Shown here: piece after piece, positions 23,369 through 35,431 of the stretch | Layout of the letters: every line of letters begins with the position of its first letter | Position numbering within the stretch: the stretch's first letter is position 1 | Assembly: GCA_026988155.1 (NCBI GenBank) | Contig: JALSLW010000037.1 | Location: forward strand, 1 to 64,000 | Length of the DNA stretch: 64,000 bases | Direction of reading: 5' to 3' | Source: Methylomonas sp. | GTDB taxonomy: Bacteria; Pseudomonadota; Gammaproteobacteria; Methylococcales; Methylomonadaceae | Notes under the pieces: generated by a model | Database searches by the model: none | What the model was told of the DNA's origin: nothing | The model's input: the letters and a program-made list of their open reading frames with translations, nothing else | Translations under genes and position numbers: made by a program

Positions 23369-23680
23369 TTAATCCACCGTAAATAATTTATCAAAATTGG
23401 CTATTGCCAAAATTTTCTTAACATCTGGCTTTGCACCCTTTAACCGTACAGCACTTTTGCTTTCACCCACTTTATCGCGCAACACCAATAACATGCCGAG
23501 CGCAGAACTATCAAGGTAATCTACCCGCCCCATATCCACAATAATGGTACTGACTCCGCTTTCTGCCTGTTCGGTTGCTTTACGAAAATCCTGATGAATT
23601 CCAAAATCAAAACGCCCTGAAATATTAATGGTCAATGTTTTTGTACTTGCATCTAACCGTGTCTCTATTGCCATAATCAA
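23369..23680 (-). CDS. STAS-domain protein (anti-sigma-factor antagonist type)
   Basis: A 103-residue single STAS domain. The segment IIVDMGRVDYLDSSALGMLLVLRDK holds the conserved D-S-S at the phosphorylation site of SpoIIAA-like proteins. It is the last gene of the chemotaxis operon, 40 bases after the small receptor. Its phosphorylating partner is not in the window; in related clusters such proteins may couple chemotaxis signalling to another output. Confidence 0.85.
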   Translation of the reverse strand: MIMAIETRLDASTKTLTINISGRFDFGIHQDFRKATEQAESGVSTIIVDMGRVDYLDSSALGMLLVLRDKVGESKSAVRLKGAKPDVKKILAIANFDKLFTVD

Positions 23681-23720: not shown

Positions 23721-24917
23721 TTAAAATAATTCAATGTCACCTTCTTCTACAGAGGATTGAGAAACTGCTTTTTTCTCTTTTGCATTCCATTGTTTTTTCA
23801 TATCATTTAAACGGGTAACGCCTTGTTCTAACTCACTAGCCCAAACAGGCCCAGTCCCTGTTTTAAAAGTACCAAGACCAATCCTGACCTCATCACTCAT
23901 GGCTTGAAAATGCTGGGTATTTAATTCTAAAAACTCAATCATTTGCCTGGCCAAGTCTTCAAACTGCAGCCCTCTCACAGCATCTCCAACACTGGATTCA
24001 ATCTGGTCAGTCATACCGGAAACTTCAGATATTTTAATGGCTATATCATCATTCATCCGGGCAATGCCAACCAGCATTGCATCAACATTGGATTTAGAGG
24101 TAATGGCAACATTCATGTCTTTTGATGCCATTTTCTCAACCATCTCATAAGCCACGGCAATATTTTTCTTTGATGCATTAACCACAACTCTAATCTCTTC
24201 ACTAAATTTATCAGAATTTTTAGATAAATTACGTACTTCATCCGCGACCACGGCAAACCCTCTGCCTGCCTCCCCAGCCCTAGCCGCTTCAATGGCGGCA
24301 TTTAATGCCAATAAGTTAGTTTGTTCAGCAATTCCCTGCACATCAGTCAACAGCTTTTCTACCTTAGCCATATGTTCGCCCAGGTCATAAATTACACCCA
24401 CCATTTCCATGCTCTGTTTGCTGATTTGCAATGTGTTATCAATAAAATAGTTTAGAACTTCATCCGTTTCTTTAGAAAATTTTGTAAAATTTAAACCTTC
24501 ATCTGCTGAATCAGATTCTTCTCCTAAATTATTCATTAAGGAACGGACAACAGCTGACTGACCAGATGTTAAACCATGCAAATTATTAAAACTGCCCAAC
24601 ATGGTCGCCACAGCATTTGCTACAACACTTTTTAGCTGCGCCAATTCAGAATGGAATGAAACAACTTCTTGCTCAATGCAAGACTCTATCCCAGAAACAT
24701 ATTGATCAATTGCTTTATTGAGAACCTGATCATCTGTCGCATCCTGTATGTCAGTGGCCTGGTGATAATTTTGGGCACGATAGAGGTAGAAAATTCCCAC
24801 AATAAAAATAATGGGCAATGCTATCCAATAGAGAATCTCTATTGAAACAAAAACGGGCAGCAGCATTGCTGTCAAAAACAAAACCAGAAGGAACCAGATT
24901 TTTTTTATAAAAATCAT
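23721..24917 (-). CDS. Methyl-accepting chemotaxis protein with a CheZ-like C-terminal motif
   Basis: A 398-residue receptor. Two membrane segments at the N-terminus (about 7-25 and 28-47) are nearly back to back, so there is no periplasmic sensor domain. The signalling hairpin tip is near 195-230 ([18 protein letters not shown] and VADEVRNLS). Beyond the receptor hairpin lies [15 protein letters not shown] (316-330); D321 and Q325 give the D-x-x-x-Q spacing of the catalytic D/Q pair of the CheY phosphatase CheZ (DLTGQ in E. coli). The last residues, EGDIELF, resemble the CheY-binding tail of CheZ in position and character. No separate cheZ lies in this operon. That it dephosphorylates CheY is inference. 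Confidence 0.85.
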
Positions 24918-24928
24918 ATCTTCCTCCT

Positions 24929-26014
24929 TTATCTTGCTAAAGCCAAAATCTGCGTGGCAATTTTATCCAGCGGCATCACATGATCAGCAGCCCCTAACTT
25001 AAACGCCTCCCCCGGCATACCCCAAACCACACTGCTTGCCTCATCCTGAACAATATTAACCGACCCCGCATCTTTCATTTCTTTCATCGCTTTTGCTCCA
25101 TCTGCTCCCATGCCTGTCAGCATGACACCGATAGCATTACTGCCTACATTTTGTGCAACTGAGCGAAACATTACCTCAACCGAAGGTTTGTGCCGATTAA
25201 CCGGTGGCCCATCATTTAATTGACAAATATATCGGGCACCATCCCTAATCACCAATAAATGCTGGTCGCCAGGAGCAATATAAATATTGCCTGGCAAAAT
25301 TTGCTGGCCATTTTGTGCAATGCATACAGACATCTCCGTCACTTCATTTACATGCTTGGCAAATGATGCACTAAAGGCCGCGGGCAAATGCTGAGAAATA
25401 ACAATGGCAGGCGTAGTCATTGGCAAGCCGGCAACAACATCTTTAACAGCTTCAGTTCCCCCTGTAGATGAGCCTAATGCAATGATTCTATCAGTGGTTT
25501 TAAAATGCTGTTTTGCTGGGGCTGCCTGAATAACAGAGCTGGCAGAATGCTTTATCTGAGCTGAAGGAGCTGCCTTTTTTACACCCATGGCAACGTCAGA
25601 AGAACGAACTCGTGCCTTAGCAGCCATTCTAACTTTAGCAATAATATCTTCGGCATATTCATTCAGTGAATTCGATACATCAACTTTTGGCTTGGCAACA
25701 AAATCAACCGCACCCAGCTCTAATGCCTCTAATGTAACTGCAGCACCCTTTTCAGTCAGCGTTGAAATCATTACCACCGGCATTGGTCTTAAGCGCATTA
25801 AATTGCGTAAAAAGGTCAACCCATCCATACGAGGCATTTCAACATCCAGGGTCAATACATCTGGATTGAGTTTTTTAATTTTCTCTCTTGCAACCAGTGG
25901 ATCAACGGCTGAACCAACTACCTCAATGTCATCAGATGAATTGAATATTTTAGTCAGCATCTGTCTAATTAGAGCTGAATCATCAATAATCAATAATCGT
26001 ATTTTTTTACTCAT
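24929..26014 (-). CDS. cheB: Chemotaxis methylesterase/deamidase CheB
   Basis: A 361-residue protein. The N-terminal receiver domain has phospho-acceptor D57 in [13 protein letters not shown] linker of about 60 residues follows, and the methylesterase domain has the catalytic triad S183 (GSSTGG), H209 (ISQHLP) and D305 (MGADGA). It removes methyl groups from receptor glutamates to reset adaptation and is activated by CheA. It lies 10 bases after cheD, within the operon. Confidence 0.95.
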
Positions 26015-26024
26015 CCATCAGTTC

Positions 26025-26663
26025 CTAAAATAATTCAACATCACTGACCACAGGCTCATCTTTAATTGATGTTTGATACTGTTTTTCACGGGACACAATT
26101 GTCTCATTATGCAAATCTTTGACTTTTTTCATCCTTACTTTGCCTGTCTTTGGAAAATAAATCAGTTTTCGCGGATAAATATCGCCTAAATCCTGAGAGG
26201 TAAGCATTAAACCCTCCGCATCAATATAATCAAGAACAAATTCAATATTCCTGAAACCAACATCACCCATAGTAGGAATAATCTTTCCTCCGCCAAACAC
26301 TTTTACTTCCAGGTTTTTTCGCTTACCGCCATTGGCCAAAATCATATTTATCAAATGTTCCATTGCATAGTTTCCGTAACGCGTTGCGTTACCTACTACG
26401 GATTCAGCCCCTGCACTTAATTTCTGTTTGTTTGTTTCAGGAAGCATAAAATGATTCATGCCACCGACTCCAGAGACGGAATCTCTGATACATGCGGATA
26501 TACAAGAACCCAGAACAGTGGTCATGCATTCATTTTCAGTTGTTACATAATATTCACCAGGTAAAATTCTGGCACACACCATGTTACTTTCCTTATCCCA
26601 ATATCGTTTAATATTGCTGAATTCAGATATTGATGGCGGTGTGATTTTTTTTGTCTGGCTCAT
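26025..26663 (-). CDS. cheD: Chemoreceptor glutamine deamidase CheD
   Basis: A 212-residue CheD. Catalytic C54 is in LGSCISACIRD and H71 in GGMNHFMLP; the later FGGGKIIP and IGFRN-type region (VGFRNIEFVL) completes the family pattern. It deamidates receptor glutamines to create methylation sites. The protein ends VVSDVELF, sharing the D-[VI]-E-L-F terminus with the small receptor encoded two genes downstream. The C-terminal extension after about residue 175 is longer than in minimal CheD proteins. Confidence 0.94.
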   Translation of the reverse strand: MSQTKKITPPSISEFSNIKRYWDKESNMVCARILPGEYYVTTENECMTTVLGSCISACIRDSVSGVGGMNHFMLPETNKQKLSAGAESVVGNATRYGNYAMEHLINMILANGGKRKNLEVKVFGGGKIIPTMGDVGFRNIEFVLDYIDAEGLMLTSQDLGDIYPRKLIYFPKTGKVRMKKVKDLHNETIVSREKQYQTSIKDEPVVSDVELF

Positions 26664-26935: not shown

Positions 26936-27769
26936 TTACTTTATTTTTTTATATATCGTATTCCCAATCAAGTCAAAACAGGTATCAAGCTGATTTAACG
27001 ATTCTGAATGCCCAATCAATAAATGAGAACCTATCGCAAGCAATTCACCATATCTTTGCGCCAAGCGCTCTTTTGTATCCCTATCAAAATAAATGAGAAC
27101 GTTTCTGCAAAAAATAAAGTCGAATTTATTCTTCATAGGCCATTCTTTCATCAAATTAAGCTGCTTAAATTGAATCAAAGCCCGCAAGTCTGGGTGAGTC
27201 TTTACTTTAACGGCATTATTGGCTTTTCCTTTCTTAAACCAGCGCTTTATTGTTGCTTCAGGCAAACCGTCTACCCTATCACTGTTATAAATGCCCGTTG
27301 CTGCAGTCTGTAAAACATTGGTATCCAAATCTGTCGCCAAAATTTTTATTTCCCAGCCATTGGGGACATTTTCTAATAATGTCATAGCTATAGAATAGGG
27401 CTCTTCACCCGTGGAGCAGCCTGCCGACCAAACTCTTATTGTCTTTTTTGTATTATTTCTTTTTAGAACTTCGGGAATAATGGTGTCTCTTAAATAATCA
27501 AAATGGTGTTTTTCTCTAAAAAAAGAGGTCAGATTAGTAGTGACTGCATTAATAAATTCTGTAAATTCTTTTTCAGGATTATTTTTGAGGTACTGGCAAT
27601 ATTCCTTAAAATTTGCCAGACCGTGCATTCTCAGCCTTTTTGATAACCTGGAATAAAACATATCAAATTTATCATCTGGAACTAGAATTCCTGAATGTTC
27701 ATTAGATATTTTTCTTAAAAAATCAAAATCTTTCCTGGTATATAGAAACTCACGCTGTTTATCTGACAC
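26936..27769 (-). CDS. cheR: Chemotaxis methyltransferase CheR
   Basis: A 277-residue S-adenosylmethionine-dependent methyltransferase. The N-terminal helical domain ends in the TTNLTSFFRE signature; the catalytic domain shows IRVWSAGCSTGEEPYSIAM (SAM-binding) and FDFIFCRNVLIYFD. It methylates receptor glutamates. The large receptor of the same operon carries a tail that could dock it. Seventy-two bases separate it from the STAS gene upstream. Confidence 0.95.
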   Translation of the reverse strand: MSDKQREFLYTRKDFDFLRKISNEHSGILVPDDKFDMFYSRLSKRLRMHGLANFKEYCQYLKNNPEKEFTEFINAVTTNLTSFFREKHHFDYLRDTIIPEVLKRNNTKKTIRVWSAGCSTGEEPYSIAMTLLENVPNGWEIKILATDLDTNVLQTAATGIYNSDRVDGLPEATIKRWFKKGKANNAVKVKTHPDLRALIQFKQLNLMKEWPMKNKFDFIFCRNVLIYFDRDTKERLAQRYGELLAIGSHLLIGHSESLNQLDTCFDLIGNTIYKKIK

Positions 27770-27841: not shown

Positions 27842-28390
27842 CTAAAAGAAGCCGGCGGCGGCCTGATCAATCTCTAACATTTCTGCTAAACCCAAAACTT
27901 CAGCTGATTCAATAAATTTATCTGAAGGAAAATCAAAAATAACTTCTTTATGCAACTTAATCGCAGCCTGTTTCAGCACAATCAATAACTGCAAGGTAGC
28001 TGTATCTATCGAAGTTACTTCCGATGCATCAACTTCAATTTTATCCTGACCTTCCAGCAGCACTAGCAAATGTTCATATAGTATGCCTACCTTTTGTATA
28101 TTGAGCGTTGCATCTAAAATAATTTTGAACTCATCTGCTTGTCCAGCACCGTTTTCACTAACTGAGGCATCAGCCATTTCCTCAACGGCCTGTGACTCAG
28201 CCGTCAACTCCTGCACGACTTCTGCAGGCACTGTGGGTTCAGCTGACTCATTCACTGACTGCCCAGCCTTAACATCAACTGCTGACTCACTGGCTTGCTC
28301 CACTTCAGACGACTCCGTAGTTTGGCTATTTCCATCATCATTATTCATCCATGCCAGCGGATCAAAACCAATCATATCTTTTTCTGCCAT
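27842..28390 (-). CDS. STAS-domain protein with long acidic N-terminal region
   Basis: A 182-residue protein. Residues 1-90 are acidic and low-complexity (runs of E, S, V), probably disordered. Residues 95-180 form a STAS-like domain with IEVDASEVTSIDTATLQLLIVLKQAA, where Thr replaces the usual phosphorylatable Ser after Asp. Its start overlaps the stop of the ParA gene by one base, so the two are coupled. A second STAS protein closes the operon. Confidence 0.8.
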   Translation of the reverse strand: MAEKDMIGFDPLAWMNNDDGNSQTTESSEVEQASESAVDVKAGQSVNESAEPTVPAEVVQELTAESQAVEEMADASVSENGAGQADEFKIILDATLNIQKVGILYEHLLVLLEGQDKIEVDASEVTSIDTATLQLLIVLKQAAIKLHKEVIFDFPSDKFIESAEVLGLAEMLEIDQAAAGFF

Positions 28391-29151
28391 TACATAACCC
28401 TCCCCTCTAAAAAGTCATCGGCCAAGTTTCTAAAGTCTCTTGCAGAGCGACTTCCTGGGCGATATTCAAGTATAGTTTTTCCAAAACTAGGACATTCTGC
28501 CAATAACGCCGTTTCCCTAATCACCGTGTTTAACACTTGATTAGGGAAATACTTCAGCATTTTCCCCAATACATCTTTAGAAATTCTTCGGGTCGTCGCA
28601 TATCTGGACATAACTAAAGATAGCTTGTATTTTTTCTTTAATACCTGTTCGAAGCGTTTTATTGTCCCCATCATATGTGACAAGCCCTGCAATGATAAAA
28701 AATCACCTGCCATTGGGATTAAAACTTCATCGGCTGCAAATAGTGCATTAGCAACTAAAACACCTGATGACGGCGGACAATCAATAAACACAAAGTCTTG
28801 ATCATTCAGATTTTCATGCAGTGCTTTTCGCAGCAAATCGCCTCTATTTGCTCCGCCTTCAGACAACTGTTCAATTTCATGCAGCTTTGGACCAGCAACA
28901 ACTAATTGCAAATTATCTCTCACTGGAATCAAATTCTTAACGATATCAGCTTCACCTAGCAGAACCTCATCAAGCCCCGGTCTATTAGGGTTAACCACTC
29001 CAAATGAAAGAGCAAGATGCCCTTGAGGATCTAGATCAATAACCGTTATTTTCTTACCTGACTTTGCCAGTGCATGAGTCAAATTAGTCGTCGTTGTTGT
29101 TTTGCCAACGCCGCCTTTTTGATTAATAATTGCAACTACCCGTTCAGCCAT
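28390..29151 (-). CDS. ParA/MinD-family ATPase of the chemotaxis operon (ParC-like)
   Basis: A 253-residue ATPase with the deviant Walker A motif NQKGGVGKTTTTTN (residues 10-23), Walker B FVFIDCPPSSG and the DLDPQGHLA switch. Among chemotaxis operons of polarly flagellated gammaproteobacteria a ParA relative next to cheW (ParC in Vibrio) positions the receptor arrays at the pole and passes them to daughter cells. The same role is likely here. Both neighbouring stops and starts overlap by a base. Confidence 0.9.
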   Translation of the reverse strand: MAERVVAIINQKGGVGKTTTTTNLTHALAKSGKKITVIDLDPQGHLALSFGVVNPNRPGLDEVLLGEADIVKNLIPVRDNLQLVVAGPKLHEIEQLSEGGANRGDLLRKALHENLNDQDFVFIDCPPSSGVLVANALFAADEVLIPMAGDFLSLQGLSHMMGTIKRFEQVLKKKYKLSLVMSRYATTRRISKDVLGKMLKYFPNQVLNTVIRETALLAECPSFGKTILEYRPGSRSARDFRNLADDFLEGRVM

Positions 29152-29666: not shown

Positions 29667-32387
29667 TTAGAAGTCCTCCCATTCATCATCTGCCCCTGAA
29701 CTGCTAGCCGAAAAAGAAGGCTGGGAAACTGACTTTTGCGGAGCGGGTGCAGCTATTGGCTGAGCTGAGGCCGATCCATTATTACCCGATATACTCTGTT
29801 CTACCTCACCCAATAACTTGACAATTCGATCTGACAGGGATGAAACTGTATTGTAATCTTGTGATGCCGCCTGGTCATTATGCTGATCCTTATGAGAGAT
29901 ACACGATTGCACGTTCTTATGCATATCAACATGCAGTTTTTCCAACTCCTTCATTGCTGGCAAGTGGCCGTGTTCAGCCAACCCGGTAGAATACAGCCAT
30001 TTTCCTAAATCACAGTCTCTATGAGACGCAGCCTGATCCATTGTTAATGCTTCTGAACCATCAAGAAAACCTCTTAACCGACCCTTCCAGGCCAGGTGCT
30101 TGCTTTTTGCCAAAGCAAAATCCAAAGAATTTGATCCGATGCCAGATGCAGATGCATGTGTATGTTGATGCACTGAAGTTCCTGCTCCCCCTGCACCTAT
30201 TTTAAAAAAAGATAATAACTGCGCCATTGAAGTAGACTGGTCACTCATGGCAACACTCGAAGCAGAAGCTTCTTCTGCCAAAGCGGCATTTTGCTGTGTG
30301 ATTTCATCCATCTGCGATACAGCCTGATTCACTTGCTCTATTCCTTGAGACTGTTCAACACTGGCCGCGGCAATTTCTGCAACGATATCACCTACTTTCT
30401 TAACCCCTGTAACAATCTCATTCAATGAAGTTCCTGTTTGATTAACAAATTCAGTGCCCGACCTGACTTTTTGCAGACTTGTTTGGATCAAATCCTTACT
30501 TTCTTTAGCTGCCGTCGCACTTCGCTGTGCCAGGTTTCTGACTTCTGTTGCTACCACCGAAAAACCTCTACCCTGTTCACCTGCTCGGGCAGCTTCTACT
30601 GAAGCATTGAGAGCCAGCAAATTGGTCTGAAAAGCAATTTCATCAATTACACCAATAATTTCAGCAATTTTATTGCTGCTGACATTTATTTCCTGCATAG
30701 CCGAAACTGCAGAAGTAACGACTTCCCCTCCCTTTTCTGCTAACTGTCTAGCAGAAGTCGCTACTTGATTGGCCTGCTGAGCATTATCGGCATTATTTTT
30801 AACTGTACTGGTTAATTCTTCCATACTGGATGCCGTTTCCTCCAGGTTGGCGGCCTGCTGTTCGACTCGATTAGACAAATTGTTATTGCCACTGGCAATT
30901 TCCTGTGCCGAACTGTTTATAAACTCTGCTGAATCATTCACTTGCCCAACAATTTCAGCTATTTTGTCCATTGAGGCATTAATGCTATTTTTACATTCTA
31001 AATAAGTACCTTGATAATCGCTGGTAATTCGCTTGCTTAAGTCGCCATTTGCCATGTTTTGCATAGAACTGCTGACATCTGAAAAAACATTTTCTATATT
31101 TTCCGTCAGTTCATTAATACCCTCACTGAGCTTTTCAAAAAAACCTTCTTTGTCTGCCATTTCAATGCGTGAGCGCAAGTTCCCTGCTTTTATATCTTCA
31201 ACTATAGTTTCAATTTCTTTCTCGATTTTTACTTCTTTAGTCCGGTCCAGCCACTCAACTACTATGCCAATACGATCGCCATTTTCATCGTTCACTGGAT
31301 TTGCTACAAAGTCCATATGCCTGCCGCCAATTATCAAGCTGGCTTTTACAGTACTATTTAATTTTGCCAGCATCCCTCTCTGATGTTCAGGTTTTTTATG
31401 AAACTGGTCTATATTGGCACCGAGCAACTCATTTGACCTAAACTCTGGCAAATCTTTTCGTATATCGGACTCCGCATTATTAAACAGTTCCTGAACCGTA
31501 CTATTCATATAGATAATATCTAAATTATTATCTGCAACCATCACACTAGAGCTTACGTTATCCAGTGCCTGTTTGATCCGCATTGAACCGGCCGCCAGTT
31601 CCTGCACTTCCGAAAGATCTGCATTCAGCTTAACCTGCATGCCATAAATGGCTTTATACATATCGCCAATTTGATCGCTTCTATCCACATCAATGGTATT
31701 CCTGTATTGTCCATTTGCTAGCTGGTAGGATATTCCTATCACTTTTTCCAATGCAGCCCTATAATCCTGTACCATTTTAATGCCTATCATAGAGGCTATT
31801 CCGGTAAGTACTGCAACACCTGCCAGCATAGGCATATTGCCTTGCTGATATAGCAGAAACATGAAGTATAGGCTAGGAATCAACAGACCAGCTAAGACAA
31901 TGCCTGCTTTTAACCCTAGGCTCATTTCTTTCATATTTTTCAGTATTAATGCCATGCCTTTGGGTCGTATTTCTGCTTTATTGGCATTAAGCTGCTGATA
32001 CAGGTCTTCTGCTGCACTAATTTGCTGGCGGCTCGGTGCATATCGTACTGACAGCAGTTCATCCACTCGGCCATTTTTGTACACAGGCGTTACGTTGGCC
32101 TCTACCCAATAATAGTCACCTGTTTTAGTTCTATTTTTAACAGGTGCCGTCCAGGGATTGCCAGCTTTACAGCAGTTCCATAAGTCTTCAAAAGCAGCCG
32201 ATGGCATATCAGGATGGCGAACCACATTATGGCTTTTGCCAACCAGCTCCTCTTTACTAAAGCCACTGATATCTATAAACGCCTGATTAGCATAGGTAAT
32301 AACCCCCTTTAAATTTGTTCGGGTAACCAGAATATCACCTTTTTTCATAGTCACTTCATGATCAGTGACCGGCATATTAATTTTCAT
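29667..32387 (-). CDS. Aer-like PAS chemoreceptor with CZB domain and CheR-docking-type tail
   Basis: A 906-residue receptor. An N-terminal Aer-like PAS domain (about 10-125; YANQAFIDISGFSKEELVG) is followed by two membrane segments near 155-205, a second PAS-like domain (about 275-390), HAMP-like helices and the signalling hairpin ([20 protein letters not shown]). A zinc-binding CZB domain lies near 750-840 (HLAWKGRLRGFL, then HRDCDLGKWLY and two more His). The extreme C-terminus, EWEDF, fits the x-W-x-x-F pentapeptide used by E. coli receptors to tether CheR. The architecture suggests redox or energy sensing from the cytoplasm. Confidence 0.92.
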   Translation of the reverse strand: MKINMPVTDHEVTMKKGDILVTRTNLKGVITYANQAFIDISGFSKEELVGKSHNVVRHPDMPSAAFEDLWNCCKAGNPWTAPVKNRTKTGDYYWVEANVTPVYKNGRVDELLSVRYAPSRQQISAAEDLYQQLNANKAEIRPKGMALILKNMKEMSLGLKAGIVLAGLLIPSLYFMFLLYQQGNMPMLAGVAVLTGIASMIGIKMVQDYRAALEKVIGISYQLANGQYRNTIDVDRSDQIGDMYKAIYGMQVKLNADLSEVQELAAGSMRIKQALDNVSSSVMVADNNLDIIYMNSTVQELFNNAESDIRKDLPEFRSNELLGANIDQFHKKPEHQRGMLAKLNSTVKASLIIGGRHMDFVANPVNDENGDRIGIVVEWLDRTKEVKIEKEIETIVEDIKAGNLRSRIEMADKEGFFEKLSEGINELTENIENVFSDVSSSMQNMANGDLSKRITSDYQGTYLECKNSINASMDKIAEIVGQVNDSAEFINSSAQEIASGNNNLSNRVEQQAANLEETASSMEELTSTVKNNADNAQQANQVATSARQLAEKGGEVVTSAVSAMQEINVSSNKIAEIIGVIDEIAFQTNLLALNASVEAARAGEQGRGFSVVATEVRNLAQRSATAAKESKDLIQTSLQKVRSGTEFVNQTGTSLNEIVTGVKKVGDIVAEIAAASVEQSQGIEQVNQAVSQMDEITQQNAALAEEASASSVAMSDQSTSMAQLLSFFKIGAGGAGTSVHQHTHASASGIGSNSLDFALAKSKHLAWKGRLRGFLDGSEALTMDQAASHRDCDLGKWLYSTGLAEHGHLPAMKELEKLHVDMHKNVQSCISHKDQHNDQAASQDYNTVSSLSDRIVKLLGEVEQSISGNNGSASAQPIAAPAPQKSVSQPSFSASSSGADDEWEDF

Positions 32388-32945: not shown

Positions 32946-35021
32946 TTATTGATTTGATAATCTTACTAAACCGGGAATATCCAGAATCAGAGCAACAGAA
33001 CCATCACCTAGAATGGTTGCACCAGAAACACCTTCTACTTTTCTATAATTTGCTTCTAATGACTTAATGACAACTTGCTGCTGCCCTAGCAGGTCATCGA
33101 TAAATAATCCACAGCGCATCCCCTGTCCATCAACCACTACAACCAGGCCTTCTGTCAATTTTGTCGCCTGTACAGTTTTTACATCAAAAATCTCATGCAT
33201 TCTGACTATGGGTAAATATTCATTCCGCAGGCGAAAAGTCTCCCCCTTGCCTGCCACACGATTAACCATGGTTTCATTAACATTAATAGATTCTATAATT
33301 GCACCTAATGGCACTATAAAGCGTTCATCGCCTACTGCAATTGATTGTCCATCCATAATTGCCAATGTGAGAGGCAAATGAATGGCTATGGTCGAGCCTT
33401 TTCCCAGCTCCGAAATGATTTCTATATTGCCGCCTAGCGATTGGATATTTCTTCTGACTACATCCATCCCTACACCACGCCCTGAAACATCTGTCAGCTT
33501 TTCTGCTGTAGAAAATCCAGCCATGAAAATCAGTTCATATGTCTGTTTGTCAGTCAGTATGGAATCTTCGTCAATCAGACCTTTTTCTATTGCCTTAGCC
33601 CTTAACATGTCTTTGTTAAGTCCTTTACCGTCATCCCTTACTTCAATGACGATATTGCCTCCTCTATGATAGGCTTCCAGCGTAATTGTGCCTGTTTCCG
33701 GCTTGCCCGCCGCCACACGGTCAGCGGGCATTTCAATGCCATGGTCTAAGCTATTTCTGACTAAATGAACCAAGGGGTCACTTAATAATTCGACAACCGT
33801 TTTATCAACTTCCGTGTGCTCGCCAACCATCACCAATTCGATTTTTTTATCTAACTTAGTGCTCAAGTCGTGCACTAATCGTGGAAAACGGCTAAAAACA
33901 AAACTAATTGGCAGCATGCGGATATTCATCACACTTTCCTGCAATTCTCTGGTGTGACGCTCTAATTGTGACAAGCCATTTTTAAGCTGGTCCAGCTTAT
34001 TTAATTCAAAGTTTTCACCTACTAGGCCTAACATGGACTGGGTGATAACAAGCTCACCAACCATATTAATCAAAGTATCAATCTTACTGGTATCCACCCT
34101 AATAGAACTTGAACCTTTAGCTGCTGGTTTTGCTGGCTGTTTTTTACTTGCTGCGGGTTTAACCGGCTTATTGACTACCTCTGTTTTAGTTTTAGGTTCT
34201 GAGGATTGCTGATTGGCATTTTCTTTAACGGAGGACTCTTCAATCGGTGCAATGCCGTTATCATTTTGACTTCGCTCATCCAATGGCTGAATAGCCAAAT
34301 CACAATCATCTTCAACCCAGTCAAAAATATCATTGATTTCAGAAATGGGAATATCACCGGCAATATCTAAATTCCATGATAAATGACATTCCTCTGGATC
34401 CAGGTCATAAAAATCAGGAACGCCTTGAAAATCGACTGTTACTGCCAACTCACCTAATGAAGCAAGTTCTCTGAACATTCTGACAGGATCATTGCCTGTT
34501 TTAAGTAAATTGGTATGGGGACTAAATGCAATTCGCCACCCGCCTTCACTTTCTTTCTCAGAGCCTAGTTCTAAAACTGGTTCTCCAGGGGGGGCTACAG
34601 AATTATTTTCCGGTGAAGCTTCATTAACTTGATTGCCGTTTAGTTCAATTTCCAATGCTTTTTTATACTCAGTTACACTAGGAACATCTATCTCCTGCTC
34701 ATCCTGAATAGCGGTCAACATTTCTCTTAAACAATCGACTGACCCTAAAAGCACGTCAACGGCAGGCTGAGTTACTTGCCTGCGCCCATCCCGCATTTCA
34801 TCAAGCAGGGTTTCCATAACATGAGTAAAATCAGAAACTGCAGTAAAACCAAAGGTTCCACTGCCTCCTTTTATGGAGTGAGCCGCTCTAAAAATAGTAT
34901 TAATATCTTCAGCATCAACATCTCCCATATCAAGGTTTAACAACCCTGTTTCCATTATGTCCAGACCTTCAAAACTCTCTTCAAAAAAGACCTGGTGGAA
35001 CTGTGCCATATCGATTGACAT
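32946..35021 (-). CDS. cheA: Chemotaxis histidine kinase CheA
   Basis: A 691-residue kinase. The HPt (P1) domain has phospho-acceptor H48 in FRAAHSIKGGSGTFG. A P2-like region follows near 160-250 (WRIAFSPHTNLLKTGNDP). A Lys/Ala/Pro-rich linker leads to P3 dimerisation helices, the P4 ATPase (LVRNSLDHGIE, VRDDGKGLN, GRGVGMDVVR) and the P5 CheW-like domain at the C-terminus. It phosphorylates CheY and CheB. It follows cheY by 47 bases. Confidence 0.96.
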   Translation of the reverse strand: MSIDMAQFHQVFFEESFEGLDIMETGLLNLDMGDVDAEDINTIFRAAHSIKGGSGTFGFTAVSDFTHVMETLLDEMRDGRRQVTQPAVDVLLGSVDCLREMLTAIQDEQEIDVPSVTEYKKALEIELNGNQVNEASPENNSVAPPGEPVLELGSEKESEGGWRIAFSPHTNLLKTGNDPVRMFRELASLGELAVTVDFQGVPDFYDLDPEECHLSWNLDIAGDIPISEINDIFDWVEDDCDLAIQPLDERSQNDNGIAPIEESSVKENANQQSSEPKTKTEVVNKPVKPAASKKQPAKPAAKGSSSIRVDTSKIDTLINMVGELVITQSMLGLVGENFELNKLDQLKNGLSQLERHTRELQESVMNIRMLPISFVFSRFPRLVHDLSTKLDKKIELVMVGEHTEVDKTVVELLSDPLVHLVRNSLDHGIEMPADRVAAGKPETGTITLEAYHRGGNIVIEVRDDGKGLNKDMLRAKAIEKGLIDEDSILTDKQTYELIFMAGFSTAEKLTDVSGRGVGMDVVRRNIQSLGGNIEIISELGKGSTIAIHLPLTLAIMDGQSIAVGDERFIVPLGAIIESINVNETMVNRVAGKGETFRLRNEYLPIVRMHEIFDVKTVQATKLTEGLVVVVDGQGMRCGLFIDDLLGQQQVVIKSLEANYRKVEGVSGATILGDGSVALILDIPGLVRLSNQ

Positions 35022-35068: not shown

Positions 35069-35431
35069 TTAACCTAAAACTTTCTTTATTGTTTTTAACA
35101 ATTGATCAGGGTTAAAAGGCTTTACGATCCAGCCTGTTGCACCTGCCGCTTTACCTGCCTGTTTTTTATCCATTCCTGATTCTGTAGTTAACATCAGCAT
35201 AGGAATAAACTTAAAGTCAGGCAGTGCCCGCAAGTCCTTTATTAAGGTAATGCCATCTTTATTCGGCATATTTACATCAGTCACCACACAGTCAAATTTT
35301 TGTGTTTTTGCCTTATTTAAAGCATCTACACCATCAACCGCTTCAACTACTGTGTAGCCGGCCCCTTTTAATGTGAATGAGACCATTTGTCTCATGGATG
35401 CTGAATCATCTACTGCAAGTATGCTTGCCAC
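35069..35431 (-). CDS. cheY: Chemotaxis response regulator CheY
   Basis: A 120-residue single receiver domain with D8-D9, phospho-acceptor D52 (VVTDVNMPNKDG) and the conserved Lys in WIVKPFNPDQ. Phospho-CheY sets flagellar rotation. It is the first gene of the 12-gene operon. The 218-base gap upstream must hold the operon promoter; I see no clear sigma-28 site there. Confidence 0.95.
   Translation of the reverse strand: MASILAVDDSASMRQMVSFTLKGAGYTVVEAVDGVDALNKAKTQKFDCVVTDVNMPNKDGITLIKDLRALPDFKFIPMLMLTTESGMDKKQAGKAAGATGWIVKPFNPDQLLKTIKKVLG

Follow-up and report, generated by a model that had tools for sequence, protein, structure and literature searches.

The window (the whole stretch of 64,000 nucleotides of Methylomonas sp. 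DNA that was analysed) held an operon of 12 genes, read from 35431 down to 23369 in the order cheY, cheA, cheW, PAS/HAMP/MCP/CZB receptor, cheW, parA-like, STAS, cheR, cheD, cheB, McpA-like receptor and STAS (Pfam; Table 1). The McpA-like receptor, gene 11, occupied the open reading frame named in the original prediction, on the minus strand. Translation bore out its length of 398 residues, and a hydrophobic stretch at the N-terminus, read by eye, left no room for a periplasmic domain, again as predicted. The D-x-x-x-Q pair D321 and Q325 was present in the translated frame.

Table 1. Positions of the receptor, its parts and the neighbouring chemosensory genes in the window
Feature	Position	Strand	Basis or note
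CheY, single receiver domain; proposed substrate	35069..35431	minus	PF00072, E = 1e-26
CheA kinase: Hpt, dimerisation, ATPase and CheW-like domains	32946..35021	minus	Pfam
PAS/HAMP/MCP/CZB receptor, ends EWEDF; F7 aer2-like receptor position	29667..32387	minus	Pfam
CheR methyltransferase (PF01739)	26936..27769	minus	E = 6.6e-64
CheD deamidase (PF03975)	26025..26663	minus	E = 1.6e-26
CheD last eight codons, ending SDVELF; tail type as in the receptor	26028..26051	minus	Sequence
CheB methylesterase (PF01339 plus receiver)	24929..26014	minus	Pfam
McpA-like chemoreceptor, 398 aa	23721..24917	minus	ORF; membrane stretch, MCP hairpin, CheZ-like C-terminal helix, acidic tail
N-terminal hydrophobic membrane stretch, residues 7-47 (about)	24777..24899	minus	Sequence, by eye
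MCPsignal domain (PF00015), residues 167-310	23988..24419	minus	Pfam, E = 5.1e-29
CheZ-like D-x-x-x-Q element LQFEDLARQ, residues 317-325	23943..23969	minus	Conservation, CheZ profile comparison, helical register
D321 codon	23955-23957	minus	Inside LQFEDLARQ
Q325 codon	23943-23945	minus	Inside LQFEDLARQ
C-terminal tail EEGDIELF, residues 391-398; proposed docking peptide	23724..23747	minus	CheD-type tail
STAS protein downstream of the McpA-like receptor	23369..23680	minus	E = 2.6e-15

The gene order resembled the one that Ortega et al. (PMC7184735) give for 'stage 1' F7 clusters, and the receptor was therefore named McpA-like, after the kind represented by VCA1088 and CttP/PA0180. It had the MCP signalling domain of that kind, a predicted transmembrane region without a large periplasmic domain (by eye), and a position beside cheB, cheD, cheR and STAS in an F7-type cluster (gene order compared with section 10 of PMC7184735). 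We infer the F7 class of the cluster from gene order, not from CheA phylogeny. Compared with the stage 1 order in that section, the window cluster had an extra parA-like gene, the first of its two STAS genes preceded cheR instead of cheY, and its last STAS gene was not followed by one for a serine phosphatase. The parA-like gene (28390-29151) is not on the stage 1 gene list of section 10; of 98 neighbourhood loci, many of which were short, 18 had such a gene assigned. In an NCBIfam scan the receptor matched seven MCP models, each under its own cut-off, and CheZ was not among the matches.

CttP/PA0180 of P. aeruginosa and VCA1088/Mlp44 of V. cholerae occupy the same place near cheB-cheD-cheR and STAS and are, like the window receptor, predicted transmembrane receptors (PMC7184735, PMC7534058). 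The passages of these two papers that describe them ascribe a phosphatase element to neither, in which they differ from the reading developed here. According to the review among the two, VCA1088 had no experimental reports, and deletion of McpA-like receptors is described as leaving F7 arrays in place (PMC7184735).

Conservation and helical setting of the D-x-x-x-Q pair

At E 1e-40, a search with a 13-orthologue profile recovered the family from 63 of 274 genomes of the class, among them the genome of the window. Of 19 genomes searched behind named loci, 8 had the family at E 1e-40, and none of four Pseudomonas genomes (G334-G337) gave a match. The conservation set comprised the 94 frames above 190 bits among 239 receptor-like frames at E 1e-20 (145 below were dropped), with L246 and second copies counted. 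D321 was kept in 93 of the 94 and Q325 also in 93, both together in 92, and residues 322-324 were variable. After filtering at 70% identity or less, 80 of the 82 remaining sequences had both residues, and D321 and Q325 were the two most conserved columns outside the tip region (residues 190-236); D267, F110 and Q120 were also conserved outside the tip in this filtered set. One exception (L246) had lost both D321 and the ELF tail, and the other (L227) had lost Q325 and kept the tail.

Vibrio and Shewanella members of the family carried the element. In Vibrio, Shewanella and Alteromonas, E320 was replaced by A, T, S or G while D and Q stayed, as in the LQFAD and LQFTD of Vibrio, the LQFSD of Shewanella and the QFGD of Alteromonas. 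In the genome of V. mimicus (L265) the McpA-like gene was split over two frames, with LQFTDIVSQ and the tail on the second piece. Alignment A1, with 13 rows, did not include L021 (identical in gene to L246, which has lost D321), L030 (truncated at the edge of its contig), the second copies of G003 and G034, or matches of lower score. Alignment A3 took the first 12 relatives by tblastn rank plus four rows of a second receptor group, the FQDR type, and its invariant columns are biased for these four, which were picked for showing the element. The near-invariant F-x-D-x-x-x-Q element is a real property of a receptor family and not one motif in one protein.

Helical-wheel phases were fitted with the motif left out. 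At a period of 3.5, the angle from the core in McpA was 113 degrees for D and 164-165 degrees for Q, against 107-113 and 159-164 degrees in CheZ; with seven heptad positions, agreement in register is expected by chance about one time in seven. At a period of 3.6 the values were 77-96 (D) and 117-136 degrees (Q) in McpA and 122-131 and 162-171 degrees in CheZ, a difference of some 35 to 45 degrees.

The AlphaFold2 monomer model (17 sequences) was of low confidence (mean pLDDT 76.8, pTM 0.41) and placed helices at 62-132 and 144-353, the latter unbroken where the hairpin tip was expected. With this pTM and the tip absent, the model was rejected as a source of geometry, both for the reach to CheY and for the bundle. 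The nine best Foldseek matches were MCPs, and no CheZ was among the 50 matches listed. Matches to solved MCP structures stopped at or before profile position 320, so that the element lies just past the part with known structure.

Similarity to CheZ

The context that the original prediction quoted for E. coli CheZ was confirmed: the alignment of PDB chain 1kmi_Z reads FQDLTGQ at D143-Q147. The likeness of the receptor to CheZ (1kmi_Z, PF04344) lies in a helical F-[QE]-D-[ILM]-x-x-Q, in the same heptad position at period 3.5, and in a small residue five before D. CheZ has A-x-x-F-Q immediately before its D-x-x-x-Q (as given in PMC7750401), and S, A or G stood at that position in 86 of the 94 McpA-like receptors. 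The two differ in that CheZ is a soluble protein, whereas the window element sits in a membrane receptor without the DDLLxSLGF end and below the Pfam cut-off.

The CheZ profile was built from 39 of 46 loci, seven having failed the filter for motif and tail. Motif-centred tails of the 94 McpA-like receptors aligned with it ungapped and D on D (Prob 87, E = 4e-6), as did those of seven FQDR-type receptors (Prob 92, E = 6.7e-7). With the seven motif residues masked, the FQDR type kept E = 3.1e-4 in the same register and the McpA-like match fell to E = 0.14, by which the match between McpA and CheZ rests on the motif. Windows were also cut on the receptor side with the tip, not the motif, as anchor; inclusion depended on the tip pattern and enough length, the windows took 62 to 79 of the 94 McpA-like proteins and, from the 138 generic ones, 32 to 129, and two generic windows were too thin to be used. 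Among the McpA windows, the four containing the motif gave E = 1.1e-5 to 4e-5 against CheZ and aligned D on D (by column arithmetic) and Q on Q, compared with E = 1.8e-3 to 0.075 for the eight McpA windows without the motif and E = 7.6e-3 to 0.39 for the ten generic MCP windows.

Comparisons of whole proteins were negative or indecisive. An hhalign run over the whole length of the receptor family and CheZ gave no significant match and aligned the wrong region. The search of the window receptor against Pfam CheZ (PF04344), which the original prediction had proposed, gave no match at E ≤ 1; the receptor had the D-x-x-x-Q pair of CheZ in a helix and a score short of the gathering cut-off. A custom CheZ HMM reached a best i-E of 0.001 on the 94 McpA-like proteins, and one of the 138 generic MCPs reached 6e-5, elsewhere in CheZ; single-sequence HMM scores are not decisive, since a generic MCP outscored the best McpA-like match.

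The Pfam CheZ model matched 12 places below its cut-off in 74 receptor-bearing genomes. Eight were short receptor frames with FQDxxxQ in the tail, of which L314 did not fit the MCP pattern, although a divergent MCP tip is present. Three were MCPs in which the expected place lacked the element, among them L315, in which F-A-D-S-L-E-Q was matched in another part of CheZ, and one was not an MCP by pattern. Loose versions of D-x-x-x-Q occurred elsewhere in receptors.

The FQDR type is a separate group of short MCPs with stronger similarity to CheZ than the McpA-like receptors. It shares with them a hydrophobic N-terminus and has the element LQFQDRxxQ and a hydrophobic [IV]TFF-like tail. FQDR-type genes adjoined cheY in L240 (5039-6247) and L241 (8855-10078). 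They were found in 6 of 249 genomes of the phylum at E 1e-50, and further members exist below that cut-off. LQFQDRxxQ or a close version was seen in L240, L241, L306-L310, L312, L313, L314, L316-L318 and L320. A frame of 443 aa (L322, G069:C30) with FQDITRQ and the tail NIELF looked intermediate among the McpA-like, FQDR-type and CheZ motifs.

The C-terminal tail and the genes for CheY-P termination

The original prediction likened the receptor tail to the CheY-docking end of CheZ. The tail, EEGDIELF, is acidic and hydrophobic as described, but it is not a CheZ docking end: the CheZ of the same genome, with the catalytic sequence FQDITGQ, has the C-terminal end DDVDDLLSSLGF and finishes in DDLLSSLGF, and no end of the DDLLxSLGF type was found in the receptor. 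The identification was rejected on this difference and because CheD carries a tail similar to that of the receptor.

The tail pattern was found in 90 of the 94 McpA-like receptors. Frames were assigned to families by their best match among the che genes of the window. An [IV][ED]LF-like tail ended 90 of the 102 frames assigned to the receptor, 33 of the 45 assigned to CheD and none of those assigned to the other ten families. Both genes were present in 43 loci, with the tail in both proteins in 34, in the receptor only in seven and in CheD only in two. In three of the seven (L185, L218, L225) CheD had VELF or VELW followed by further residues. In L209 and L215 the receptor tail was now DFF or VFF, and the CheD end also differed (VFFLSD, VSFL). 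These patterns suggest that receptor and CheD probably dock on one common partner; that it is CheY is a guess.

Similar ends were seen in two other proteins. An MCP with a CZB domain on contig C49 of the genome of the window (L304:2493-4022) ended in GEIDLF. A frame of 233 aa near a receptor cluster (L247:5168-5866, G018), with no Pfam family over cut-off, ended in DEIELF and may share the docking tail.

The claim that cheZ, cheC and cheX are missing held for the 12 genes of the operon (Pfam) and failed for the genome. A normal full-length cheZ was found on contig C5, in surroundings read by eye as fliA, cheY, cheZ and cheA, and two proteins matching CheC/CheX were found on C92 and C64. The one on C92 (G000:C92:13578-14249, L302) had a response regulator on one side and a PAS-GGDEF-EAL protein on the other, and the one on C64 (G000:C64:9406-10026, L303:5407-6027) beside a histidine kinase. 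A normal cheZ elsewhere, combined with no effect of mutating the pair, was what the original prediction had set against itself, and the first half of this combination is what was found.

The genomic cheZ does not settle how the F7 CheY is switched off. In the account of Ortega et al. (PMC7184735), every organism that has an F7 system of stage 1 or 2 carries an F6 system as well, cheZ belongs only to F6 systems, and stage 1 and 2 F7 clusters have cheY and no cheZ; Shewanella oneidensis and Methylomicrobium alcaliphilum are two species named there with F7 systems. CheY4 of V. cholerae, likewise, is described as expected not to use CheZ.

That receptor-bearing genomes go without CheZ was rejected, as 68 of 74 had CheZ above the Pfam cut-off. 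CheC and CheX were searched for in 23 of 75 genomes, including the six without CheZ over cut-off. Five of these six were also without a CheC/CheX match (G073, G130, G144, G260, G275); the sixth, G163, had no CheZ over cut-off but CheX was present. In three of the five (L218, L238, L225) cheY and cheA adjoined the receptor, and in L232 only a weak CheY-like frame was found, far off. The locus of G073 (L239) was a contig of 3.3 kb whose receptor was a partial FQDI-type frame, outside the 94.

Candidate functions of the receptor element

The preferred reading, with a probability of roughly 0.55, is that the receptor carries a CheZ-type phosphatase for the F7 CheY. The original proposal of a CheZ-like phosphatase thus stands in part: the near-invariant D/Q pair and the profile match to CheZ, obtained without using the motif as anchor on the receptor side, argue for it, and the tail and the genomic cheZ argue against it. 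The element is more likely to work like CheZ than the receptor is to be a CheZ, since neither the Pfam score nor the docking end is that of CheZ.

In E. coli CheZ, D143 contacts the active site of CheY and Q147 positions the hydrolytic water. In the receptor, the dimer would form a four-helix bundle of the N-terminal helix (about 62-132) against the C-terminal helix (about 271-353), on which F7 CheY-P would dock, perhaps aided by the acidic ELF tail. D321 would contact the active site of CheY, and Q325 would position the water that hydrolyses the aspartyl phosphate; the part of the Gln in dephosphorylation by CheZ is stated in PMC5231405. The tip of the receptor would then act on CheA and its membrane-proximal part would drain CheY-P, and CheD, with its similar tail, may dock on the same partner and hence be tied to CheY-P.

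That D and Q are invariant is also compatible with a binding site that has no catalytic role. In this case the D-x-x-x-Q helix would, together with the ELF tail, serve for CheY docking, the receptor holding CheY near CheA or acting as a buffer, with the signal ended by CheZ, a CheC-like protein or self-hydrolysis. The genome does have a CheZ and two CheC/CheX-like proteins, and the tail common to CheD looks like a docking peptide. However, exactly the two catalytic residues of CheZ are near-invariant while E320 and 322-324 are free, which exceeds the apparent need of docking and makes this explanation improbable.

Equally, the element might bind a partner other than CheY (STAS, CheD, CheB or CheR) or be a structural feature of the bundle next to the membrane, its likeness to CheZ being convergence on a short helical motif. 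STAS and CheD are among the frequent gene neighbours, the tail is common to McpA and CheD, the masked McpA tail keeps no similarity to CheZ, and D267, F110 and Q120 are conserved outside the tip too. This was judged unlikely, as the FQDR type keeps the element beside another cheY (L240, L241) and retains weak similarity to CheZ after masking, and the heptad position equals that of CheZ at period 3.5. A chance occurrence of D and Q at a spacing of four residues within a helical protein, for which the weakness of the pattern, its loose versions in other receptors and the match in L315 could be cited, is already refuted by the conservation of each residue in 93 of 94 sequences, and the CheZ profile alignment obtained without anchoring on the motif also speaks against it.

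A CheY phosphatase inside another chemotaxis protein has a likeness in CheA3 of Rhodobacter sphaeroides, presented as a bifunctional kinase-phosphatase (PMC2924250); there the host protein is a kinase, and in the window it is a receptor. Among the papers of the open literature that were listed, judged by title and the beginning of the abstract, none reported a receptor with a CheZ-like element.

A wider reading is possible but doubtful. McpA-like and FQDR-type receptors would form a class with a CheY-P phosphatase built into the stalk, and stalk and CheZ would share ancestry: CheZ may be a hairpin that derives from a receptor and has been freed of the signalling tip, or descent may have run the other way. 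On losing McpA, the F7 lineage would have exchanged the phosphatase in the receptor for a stand-alone CheZ, relying on the cheY and cheZ of F6; the change of F7 systems from stage 2 to 3 is described in PMC7184735.

The tail common to receptor and CheD predicts one partner for the receptor and the deamidase. If a phosphatase is indeed carried by the receptor, kinase control and signal termination would be joined in one receptor molecule. This would account for the switching-off of the F7 CheY where the cluster lacks cheZ, assign a function to McpA-like receptors and suggest where CheZ came from.
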